A DNA stretch of 64,000 nucleotides, taken from Thermococcus sp. 21S7 (GTDB lineage Archaea; Methanobacteriota_B; Thermococci; Thermococcales; Thermococcaceae). Below the pieces are notes generated by a model that did not search any database, had not been told where the DNA came from, and was given only the letters and a program-made list of their open reading frames with translations. Both the position numbers and the translations under genes were made by a program. This document shows, piece by piece, positions 16,649 to 55,201 of the stretch. The stretch lies in NCBI RefSeq assembly GCF_012027615.1, contig NZ_SNUT01000001.1:124001-188000 (forward strand). The letters run 5' to 3'. The number at the start of each line of letters is the position of its first letter. Position 1 is the stretch's first letter.

Positions 16649-16849
16649 TCATTTCTTTGCTTTTCCCAGCACCTCCCTTATTATTTTAGCCGCCGCAAAG
16701 GCGCTTATCCCACTGCAATCGTGTCGTGGGTTGAGCTCAACGACGTCGAATGCGACAACCCCAACGTCCAGGGATTCTATCACCCTGACCAGCTCCCTCG
16801 TGCTCAAACCGCCGGGCTCGGGATTGCCAACACCCGGGGCGAACGCGGG
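16649..16849 (-). pseudogene. Agmatinase/arginase-family gene, C-terminal remnant
   Basis: The minus strand encodes PAFAPGVGNPEPGGLSTREL, then DVVELNPRHDCSGISAFAAA and a helical tail that ends in GKAKK. This is the C-terminal 67 residues of the ureohydrolase (SpeB) family, which makes putrescine and urea from agmatine. The upstream part, including the manganese-binding His/Asp motifs, is missing. The reading frame runs straight into the right end of the tnpB element at about 16850. The gene is dead here. A second copy elsewhere in the genome cannot be judged from this window. Confidence 0.85.
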
Positions 16850-18305
16850 CTGACCTCCTCCCCGCCCTGAAGGGCGAGGGTTCCAGCGAGGAACCCCCTA
16901 CCCAACTGGCAGGGAGGTTTGAGGGGTTCTCATTAGAGCAACCCCCAACGAGGGTTCTTCGAACCCCTCGGGGAGGGCCTTCCCCCCGTTACCCCTACCT
17001 CCCGATAAAGCCGGAAGGCTCGGGGTTATGGTTTTTATGGCTTTTTTCAAAATGTTAAAAGCACCAACTAAATCCGCATTCATAACAACGCCCTCTCCGT
17101 GGCACTTGAACAAACCCCTAACAAAACGAGCATTCTCATGGCGTTGACCACAGAGAGGGCAAGTTTGAGAAGTGAAAGCCTCATTCACGACTTCGACAGT
17201 GATACCATACTCTTCTGCAACCTCTGTGAGGCGTTTAATCACATAATTAAACCGCCAGACGTGGGAAAGGATAAAATTCTGCCTTTTACCCTTGTTGGAG
17301 TTTCTGGCGATTCCCGTTGGGTAACCAACGACAATTTTAGAAACACCCAACTCGTAGAGTCTCTTAACAGTCCGCCTGACTGCCGTGTTAATGTAGTGCT
17401 TCGCCTGAAGTTTGGCCTTCCCATGCATTCTCCTGAGTTTTCTGCTCGTTTTAGCTCCTGATTTGTTGAGTTTTGACTGGTATTCCGCAATCTTCTTCCT
17501 CCAGTAAAAGTCAATGCTCTTGAGTGGTCTTCCATTCACGAGAAAGCTCTCTCCACTCTCCACGTAAACAGCCATCAAGTTGTTCACTCCCAAGTCTATC
17601 CCCGCTGAAAGGTTTCCTTTTGGCGTTCTTGGGAGTGCTACCCACTCCTCACCTTCAAGTTTTTCCTCGACGGTAAAGCTCAAGTGAGCATACCATTTTC
17701 GCCCTACCTCGTCGAAAGTGATTTCTAAGCGTCCCTGTTTTCCCTTAGGTGAATTCTACCCTTGAACTGGATTTCGAGTTTCCCAAACTTGCCGAGCCTT
17801 CTCAATTCGATAACGTTCTCCTTAATTTTGTACTGATCGTTTCTCAGGGGGATTATGAAGAGTTTTCTGCCGTTCTTTTCTCTAACGAATTTTCGTGGTT
17901 TCGGCTTGAACCATTCTGGTAGTTCTCCCTTCTTTTTCTTTCTGTTGAGGGTGAAGAATGAACGCCATGCTTCAGCGTTTTTTCTGGCCAATTGTTGGAC
18001 TGTTGAGCCACCAATCCAGTTTTTGAACTCGTGATAAGCTTCTTTTTCTGTTGTTGAGAAGTCTATTTTGCCGAATTCTTTGAACTGTTTAAGCCTCTGG
18101 TAGTTGAGTTTGTTCCAGATTATTGCTGTAGCGTAGGCTAACTCGAAGAGTGTTTTCCCCTGTTCTCTTGATGGTTGAAGTTTTACTGTTACTGCTCGCT
18201 TCATTTCAAAGTATGGTACGGTTTTTGGGCTTTAAAAAAGATTGCTTTCCTCTTTAACGGCTAATTTGCAGAATACTCTACCCCGCCGTGAACGGCGAGG
18301 CTTGG
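16850..18305 (-). mobile_element. IS200/IS605-type tnpB-only element, copy 1
   Basis: An element of about 1.45 kb reading on the minus strand, without a tnpA gene. In its own orientation the left end has the hairpin AAGCCTCGCC...GGCGGGG (18282-18305), and the right end has CCTCGCCCTTCAGGGCGGGG followed by AGGAGGTCAG (to 16850). The same two ends flank copy 2 at 33615-35064. The exact outer bases are uncertain by about ten. The element interrupts an agmatinase-like gene. A guide (omega/re) RNA would be expected to overlap the 3' end of tnpB and the right end. Confidence 0.8.
16898..18204 (-). pseudogene. tnpB: tnpB, copy 1, one frameshift
   Basis: RNA-guided nuclease TnpB in two frames: the N-terminal half at 17725-18204 and the C-terminal half within 16898-17724. 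Compared with copy 2, a single base is missing in an A-run near 17748 (CACCTAAGGG where CACCTAAAGGG would keep frame). The RuvC residues are all present: Asp in GIDLGVNNL, Glu in VEVVNEAFTS, and Asp in MNADLVGAFNIL. The zinc finger has CPLCG but only one Cys in the second half (FKCHGEG). The single lesion points to recent inactivation, or to a base-calling error in a homopolymer. Confidence 0.8.
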
Positions 18306-53204: not shown

Positions 53205-54419
53205 ATGGAAATCATCCCGCTCGTTCTTGGCGTGTTAGCCGGGATAATGACTTCCTACACCGACATCAAAACTGGATTCATTTACGATGTCCACGCCTTC
53301 CCCACCCTAACGGTTTTGGGCAAGTTGCTGGGCTGGGAAGAGGATGAGGCTGAGGAGGTTGATCTGCCCGGCTGGATTGACAAGGTTATAATACCTGCCG
53401 CGGAGGTTGGAATCGTCTACTACCTGTACAGAGGCCTCACCGAACATAATGCGATGATAGCAACCGCGGGCTTCATTGGCCTCATCATCGGCTTCCTTCT
53501 GGGGTTCCTTCTCTATTACCTTGGAGCATGGGCAAGTGGAGATATCGTGGTTCTCGCCGCGTTCTCCGCCCTCCTACCATTCGCACCCGATACCGCCCGG
53601 ATCGTCCCCCCCTACGGCGTTGGATATCCCTTGTACCCCATATCCCTCCTGTTCAACAGCATTCTGGCGGTTTTTCCGTTCATACTGCTCTACTCGTTCG
53701 GCGTTCTGATCGCCAAAGGAAAGACCAACCGTCTGGCAGAGGTATTCGCCGGGGGGATTAAAACCGCCGTGGAGTTTGCCCTGTGGTTGATGGCGATCGT
53801 TGTCGTCGGATTTGCCCTCGCCGGCAAAGGTCTTGGCGGACCGGCCGCGGGGGTGGTCTCCTTCGTTATCCTGCTGCCCCTCTTTGCGAGGTTCAGGATT
53901 GTAGGAGACGTGGCCGGAATCGCCGCTTTAGCGTATCTGCTCTACCTAGACCCAACCGCCGCATACCTTGTCCTCCTGAAGACCCTGGCAGTTTCGTACA
54001 TTCTCAAGGTTCTCCTGTCCACGATAAGCCTTATGCGCACCGAGGTTCTCGTTGAGGAGGTCACCGTCCAGGAACTCCGCGAGTGGGACATTCTCGGGGA
54101 GGTCATCCACGAGATGGACGGCAGGGTGCTGAGGGACCGGGGGAGTGGCCTTGAGCGCTTTAAGAAAGCCCTCCTCTCATGGGATTTCAAGGCGTTGAGA
54201 CCGGTCAGGGGGCGGGTCATAGCCTCCCCCACAGCGGAAGGCCTGAGCAGAGAGCAGATTGAGGAACTGAAACGGCTCGTCGAGGAGGGAAAGATTGAAA
54301 ACAGCTTTTTAAGGAAGAAATCGATGCCCTTCGCCCCGGCGCTCTTCCTCGGCTTCTTGATAAGCTACTTCTGGGGCGACGTCTTCTGGTGGCTCGTTCT
54401 CAGGGTTGCCGGGCTCTGA
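53205..54419 (+). CDS. Type IV prepilin peptidase (A24, EppA/PibD-like)
   Basis: A 404-residue membrane aspartic protease that cuts class III signal peptides. The two catalytic Asp are visible: Asp20 in MTSYTDIKTGFIYD and Asp113 in WASGDIVV (GxGD-like). There are about eight membrane helices. The cytoplasmic domain at about 280-380 (VLVEEVTVQELREWDILGEV onwards) makes it longer than archaeal FlaK/PibD (about 230), as in EppA. GAGGTGAAATC precedes the ATG. The pilin gene is directly upstream. Whether it also processes archaellins is open. Confidence 0.85.
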   Translation: MEIIPLVLGVLAGIMTSYTDIKTGFIYDVHAFPTLTVLGKLLGWEEDEAEEVDLPGWIDKVIIPAAEVGIVYYLYRGLTEHNAMIATAGFIGLIIGFLLGFLLYYLGAWASGDIVVLAAFSALLPFAPDTARIVPPYGVGYPLYPISLLFNSILAVFPFILLYSFGVLIAKGKTNRLAEVFAGGIKTAVEFALWLMAIVVVGFALAGKGLGGPAAGVVSFVILLPLFARFRIVGDVAGIAALAYLLYLDPTAAYLVLLKTLAVSYILKVLLSTISLMRTEVLVEEVTVQELREWDILGEVIHEMDGRVLRDRGSGLERFKKALLSWDFKALRPVRGRVIASPTAEGLSREQIEELKRLVEEGKIENSFLRKKSMPFAPALFLGFLISYFWGDVFWWLVLRVAGL

Positions 54420-54425
54420 CGGGTT

Positions 54426-54436
54426 AAATTTTTAAG
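54426..54436 (+). promoter_or_regulatory. TATA box of the guide-RNA locus
   Basis: The AT-rich AAATTTTTAAG is centred about 26 bases upstream of 54457, where the H/ACA sRNA would begin. Confidence 0.6.
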
Positions 54437-54456
54437 CTCCAGCACGGAGAAACCAC

Positions 54457-54518
54457 CGCCGGCCCGGCGTCCGCCCACCCCGCGGAGGGGTGAAGCGGGG
54501 ATTCCGGCCGGGCCGACA
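54457..54518 (+). ncRNA. H/ACA guide sRNA
   Basis: A GC-rich RNA with the complete archaeal H/ACA layout. Nine-bp lower stem: 54460-54468 with 54507-54515. Pseudouridylation pocket: GTCCGCCCA (54469-54477) on the 5' side and ATTCCG (54501-54506) on the 3' side. Upper stem: CCCCGC (54478-54483) with GCGGGG (54495-54500). Apical loop GGAGGGGTGAA contains GA and TGA, suitable for an L7Ae-binding K-loop. ACA box: 54516-54518. The pocket base is 15 nt from the ACA, the canonical distance. A TATA box is placed correctly. Target: RNA complementary to both pocket arms (CGGAAT, two bases, TGGGCGGAC), not identified here. Confidence 0.8.
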
Positions 54519-54576
54519 GGGGAATGAGGAGCTTTTGCTTTGCTGAGGAGTGATGAACACGCCCTTCACTGACCCC
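54519..54576 (+). ncRNA. C/D box sRNA next to the H/ACA sRNA
   Basis: Terminal stem GGGG (54519-54522) with CCCC (54573-54576). C box ATGAGGA (54524-54530, one change from ATGATGA), 12-base guide GCTTTTGCTTTG, D' box CTGA (54543-54546). Four-base spacer, C' box TGATGA (54551-54556), 12-base guide ACACGCCCTTCA, and D box CTGA (54569-54572). All spacings are those of archaeal 2'-O-methylation guides. It begins directly after the ACA of the H/ACA RNA and its 3' end overlaps the 3' end of the convergent HAD gene by 11 bases. Confidence 0.8.
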
Positions 54577-55201
54577 GCTCTTCTATGAGTCCCTTGATGA
54601 TTTCCATGACCTCGCGGAGGCTCTCAACGTTGTGGTCGCCCTCAACGCCCTCGTGGGGGTTTATCGCTATGCTGACGTCGGCTTCCTTAAACATGCTCAG
54701 GTCGTTGAAGCCGTCGCCAACGGCCACCGTAAGCTCTGGCTTCAGCTCCTCCTTCAGCTCCCGGAGTATGGTTCCCTTGCTCCTGAAGTCGACGATTGGG
54801 TTGACCTTCCCGGTAACAACACCGTTCCCGTCGAATATCAGTTCGTTGGCGAAGACGTAGTCAACTTCGAGTTCCCTCGCTATCCTTCGGGCGAGGCACA
54901 TAAGACCGCTGCTGAGTATCGCTATCTTGAAGTCGTTCTTCCTGAGAAACTCGATAAGCTCCTTTGCTCCGTCCATGTACTCAACCGAGTTCGCCCATTC
55001 CATAATCTCATCCTTTCTGTGCCCCCGCCAGAGGGAGGCGTCTAGCTCCGCCCACTTCACGTAGTCTATTTTTCCCGCAAAGAAGAGTTCGGCGTATTCC
55101 TTTCCCTTCTCCCAGGTTCCAAACATCTTGTGGAGTTCCACCCAGCTGGAGACTGACTTGACCAGCGTCCCTTCGAGATCAAAGGCTATCAGCCTAACCA
55201 T
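54566..55201 (-). CDS. HAD phosphatase, phosphoserine phosphatase-like
   Basis: A 211-residue SerB-type HAD hydrolase. Motif I is LIAFDLEGTLVKSVSSW, motif II is KIAILSSGLMCLARRIA, and motif IV is TVAVGDGFNDLSMFKEADV. Lys for motif III is in the region DFRSKGTILREL. Phosphoserine phosphatase is a fair guess but other small phosphoesters are possible. GGTGGTACG precedes the ATG, and a TTTTAAG element lies about 40 bases upstream. Its stop codon lies inside the convergent C/D sRNA. Confidence 0.83.
   Translation of the reverse strand: MVRLIAFDLEGTLVKSVSSWVELHKMFGTWEKGKEYAELFFAGKIDYVKWAELDASLWRGHRKDEIMEWANSVEYMDGAKELIEFLRKNDFKIAILSSGLMCLARRIARELEVDYVFANELIFDGNGVVTGKVNPIVDFRSKGTILRELKEELKPELTVAVGDGFNDLSMFKEADVSIAINPHEGVEGDHNVESLREVMEIIKGLIEERGQ

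Follow-up and report, generated by a model that had tools for sequence, protein, structure and literature searches.

The window, a stretch of 64,000 nt of Thermococcus DNA, carries the Thermococcus orthologue of the already catalogued snoR9/Pab21 gene, in which an H/ACA guide RNA is directly followed by a C/D guide RNA. We consider it very probable that this orthologue gives rise to one short transcript, that its H/ACA half is directed to U867 of the 16S rRNA and that its C/D half is directed to G207 and G55 of the 23S rRNA. Expression in the window organism, exact targets and processing are what we infer here; the anatomy of the unit, its covariation and the conservation of guides and sites can be read directly from the sequences.

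Identity and anatomy of the unit

The Rfam covariance-model search proposed with the initial annotation returned a full-length match to RF00065 (snoR9), which spans the whole tandem unit at positions 54460-54586 of the plus strand (model positions 1-128, 117.1 bits, E 1e-26 for the whole window; the gathering score is 90 bits). In P. abyssi, Pab21 corresponds to RF00065, and a transcript listed as one RNA (230,449-575) carries H/ACA Pab21 (230,517-575) at its 5' end and C/D snoR9 behind it (PMC4652768). In our RF00065 search one genome had its best hit at 230449-230575 (-), which are the published coordinates of the snoR9 transcript. The two units have the same domain order and boxes, nearly the same guides, and their homologues align. 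They differ in the H/ACA 5' guide, which is GUCCGCCC in the window and UCCCGCCC in P. abyssi, and in their genome neighbours, since the A24-like and HAD-like genes that flank the window unit were not found beside the Pyrococcus unit. Because the orthologous transcript has been published and its coordinates matched, the mixed H/ACA-C/D unit is already known, and its novelty is not supported.

Every part named in the initial annotation (TATA-like element, H/ACA RNA with 9-bp stem, pocket, K-loop-like apex and ACA at 15 nt, C/D RNA with its boxes and stem) was found by reading the sequence. The features are given below as positions in the window; all RNA parts lie on the plus strand.

53205-54419 (+): upstream neighbour, ORF for a membrane protein likened by judgement to A24 prepilin peptidases; conserved neighbour, stop codon just 5' of the promoter
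54426-54436 (+): TATA-like promoter element AAATTTTTAAG; sequence, AT peak in 50 aligned homologues, centre about 28 nt 5' of the RNA
54460-54518 (+): H/ACA guide RNA, Pab21 orthologue; RF00065 positions 1-59, covariation, 81.6 bits with H/ACA model R1, whose training alignment included this sequence
54460-54468 (+): H/ACA lower stem, 5' arm, 9 bp with 54507-54515; two-sided changes
54469-54476 (+): pocket 5' guide GUCCGCCC; pairing with 16S GGCGGG after U867-U868
54478-54483/54495-54500 (+): H/ACA upper stem CCCCGC/GCGGGG, 6 bp; C-G/G-C swap at the top pair
54484-54494 (+): K-loop GGA...UGA, putative L7Ae site; conserved in alignments
54502-54506 (+): pocket 3' guide UUCCG; pairing with 16S GGAA immediately 5' of U867
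54507-54515 (+): H/ACA lower stem, 3' arm; folding and covariation
54516-54518 (+): ACA box, 15 nt past the upper stem; conserved in the alignment
54519-54576 (+): C/D guide RNA, snoR9 proper; RF00065 match, alignment of 34 homologues
54519-54522/54573-54576 (+): C/D terminal stem GGGG/CCCC; sequence
54524-54530 (+): C box AUGAGGA; sequence and C/D alignment
54531-54542 (+): D' guide GCUUUUGCUUUG; pairing with 23S around G207
54543-54546 (+): D' box CUGA; sequence and C/D alignment
54550-54556 (+): C' box GUGAUGA; sequence and C/D alignment
54557-54568 (+): D guide ACACGCCCUUCA; pairing with 23S around G55
54569-54572 (+): D box CUGA; sequence and C/D alignment
54566-55201 (-): convergent downstream neighbour, ORF for a likely HAD-type phosphatase (by judgement); conserved neighbour, last codons overlap the C/D RNA 3' end

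From this list it can be seen that the first RNA has the lower stem, pocket, upper stem with K-loop and ACA spacing (15 nt, expected 14-15) of archaeal H/ACA sRNAs, and that the second has the C, D', C' and D boxes and the guides of about 12 nt of archaeal C/D sRNAs. The calculated folding energy of the H/ACA half (-39.5 kcal/mol) was lower than that of all 200 shuffled sequences (z -3.1). That of the C/D half was unexceptional, as is expected for this class. Other archaeal H/ACA RNAs (HgcF/Pab35, HgcG/Pab40, Pab91) share the hairpin plan with K-loop or K-turn, pocket and ACA, but they carry other guides and reached only 20-33 bits with the H/ACA model built here. When the HgcF, HgcG and Pab91 loci were scanned, no C/D family scored above its cut-off.

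The initial annotation had held that stems and boxes without conservation in related genomes would speak against the unit. RF00065 matched 83 of the 94 Thermococcales genomes searched. In a set of 35 distinct H/ACA sequences, eight of the nine lower-stem pairs had changed on both sides, 94% of the pair cells were standard, and the covariation score was reached by none of 500 shuffles; in slid controls of the pairing, the paired share fell to 30-58%. No variation was seen in the ACA box or in the GA and UGA elements of the K-loop, and the guide cores of the C/D half were nearly invariant among 34 homologues. Six Thermococcus genomes carry extra hairpin-capable sequence between D' and C' of the C/D RNA (loci L033, 961-1037; L069, 1051-1128; L034, L035, L070 and L071), whereas elsewhere this spacer measures 2-5 nt.

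Predicted targets of the two halves

We compared the guide arms with the rRNA of the window genome itself, a search that had been suggested at the outset, and obtained 23S G207 and G55 as candidates for the C/D half and 16S U867 or 23S U1583 for the H/ACA half. The D' guide forms 11 Watson-Crick pairs and places G207 opposite the fifth base from D'; the D guide forms 10 such pairs, with G55 as predicted target. Both guides pair with at least 9 nt of rRNA and have the fifth base from D or D' in the duplex, as in archaeal C/D guides. Dinucleotide-shuffled guides equalled the match score in 34 of 300 cases for D' and in 6 of 300 for D, and each match taken singly is beyond chance only moderately. 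The two sites are 152 nt apart and close to the 5' end of the 23S rRNA, and nearby target pairs are common for double guides. Every one of the 25 genomes read carries both.

The H/ACA pocket fits the 16S sequence GGAA[U]U GGCGGG, with the bracketed U867 (E. coli U920) as predicted target. This site ranked first for the H/ACA guide in 13 of 16 genomes when scored by a simple pair count with no energy model, and it was present in 24 of 25 genomes; in the remaining genome, the sequence examined stops short of it. The P. abyssi targets are reportedly listed in Muller 2008. In the Pab21 case studied in vitro, a U directly follows the target U on its 3' side (PMC3726423), as it does in GGAA[U]U. These pairings suggest that the two guide RNAs most likely have their targets in separate rRNAs, and they do not support the earlier proposal that both may modify the same target. 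A shared target site was rejected, since even the alternative H/ACA candidate, 23S U1583, is distant from the C/D sites.

That alternative candidate (E. coli about U1468) concerns the clade of the window. Here, a C in the 5' guide (54469-54476) has become a U, which makes the 16S duplex weaker and extends the match at 23S U1583 to a full 7 bp; U1583 therefore ranks first in this clade. In G000, G027 and G034 the guide GUCCGCC is perfectly paired with GGCGGAC beside U1583, and the 23S site outscores 16S U867 by 30 to 25.5, a preference derived from the same pair count. However, pairing of the 3' guide at U1583 uses two G-U pairs that adjoin the target U, and at the 16S site the pairing remains G-U compatible and the 3' duplex is unaltered. 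We consider it unlikely that the H/ACA half of this clade has shifted to U1583 or has added it, and 16S U867 remains our favored candidate.

Promoter, transcript and processing

When we aligned 50 full-length homologues, an AT-rich block recurred at -22 to -33, and in the H/ACA-bearing homologues this TATA-like block precedes the H/ACA half. A gap of 5 nt separates ACA box and box C in the window; in intact homologues it measures 3-7 nt. The covarying stem, the single TATA-like block, the lack of room for a second promoter and the single P. abyssi transcript (PMC4652768) support the original reading of a tandem H/ACA and C/D unit behind one promoter. Most likely, one transcript from this promoter feeds two particles. 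Transcription would start about 25 nt downstream of the TATA box and run through the H/ACA sRNA directly into the C/D sRNA. Together with Cbf5, Nop10, Gar1 and L7Ae, the H/ACA half would then form a particle that directs pseudouridylation to 16S U867; the C/D half would form one with L7Ae, Nop5 and fibrillarin that directs 2'-O-methylation to 23S G207 (through the D' guide) and G55 (through the D guide).

The unit might also be read as two abutting genes, each with its own promoter, and other genera do show a TATA-like block directly 5' of the C/D RNA. At the H/ACA-bearing loci, however, this block is found upstream of the H/ACA half, and with only 3-7 nt between the RNAs a second promoter would need to lie within the GC-rich H/ACA hairpin, which makes separate genes very improbable. 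Archaeal dicistronic units of a tRNA and a C/D sRNA are known (PMC7994747, PMC4247193), and they resemble the window unit in that a C/D sRNA follows a different stable RNA and shares its promoter. In the window, however, the partner is an H/ACA RNA, and therefore tRNA 3' processing cannot release the C/D RNA.

The fate of the joint transcript is less settled. H/ACA RNAs usually end in a 3-nt tail and C/D RNAs usually begin with a leader of 4-5 nt. Since both hardly fit a gap of 3-7 nt and would overlap nearly or fully, a cut beside the ACA box, alternative fates of the precursor and an uncut composite RNA come into consideration. The composite RNA, which would carry both particles as the eukaryotic scaRNA U85 does, has an appreciable chance of being correct, although we would not favor it; besides the narrow gap, the listing of the P. 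abyssi transcript as a single RNA (PMC4652768) is in line with it. Against it stands the observation that the Pab21 H/ACA sRNP alone is catalytically active in vitro (PMC3726423). Moreover, several genera have the C/D half by itself, and thus it does not require the H/ACA half. The comparison with U85 holds for the presence of both domains in one RNA. In U85, however, one domain is nested in the other and both are directed to a single snRNA, whereas in the window unit they stand in tandem and their predicted targets are in 16S and 23S rRNA. A wider proposal, in which a composite RNA links 16S and 23S modification and the H/ACA module was repeatedly gained or lost while the promoter and the C/D RNA on either side of it stayed fixed, appears rather doubtful to us. 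The unit is of interest as a clean and conserved example of a mixed guide transcript.

Absence or decay of the H/ACA half and gene neighborhood

In genera g4, g2 and g6 the C/D RNA stands alone, mostly behind a TATA-like block. The H/ACA half is partly decayed in G091, G092 and G066 and unrecognisable in G042 and G067. Absence or decay of this half, with the C/D half and the 16S site kept, was seen at loci L037-L054 (genera g2, g4 and g6, some of g1 and g5). A search with the H/ACA model found no strong H/ACA copy elsewhere in the genomes that lack this half. The weak matches that we examined in these genomes were HgcF, HgcG, Pab91 or a decayed copy, and no relocated H/ACA half was found among them. 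In a midpoint-rooted 23S tree, the genera with the C/D RNA only group together, and G042/G067 and G092 represent separate later events; this placement suggests that the H/ACA half was likely lost at least twice. Lineages that lack the H/ACA half but retain the 16S site offer a natural test of whether the predicted 16S pseudouridine depends on this guide and whether it is dispensable.

As for the surroundings of the unit, the C/D RNA overlaps, with its 3' end (54566-54576) and in antisense orientation, the final codons of the convergent HAD-like gene. The same layout has been reported for 16 T. kodakarensis snoRNAs (PMC4247193). In ten genomes the RNA unit has the opposite orientation with respect to the two convergent genes beside it, as if it had been flipped in place (loci L049, L050, L052, L053, L059, L060, L061, L064, L066 and L068; at L059 we found the HAD-like neighbour alone). 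Elsewhere in the window, at 16837-16946 on the minus strand, we detected an HgcC RNA (RF00062) with 52.5 bits at a cut-off of 50.
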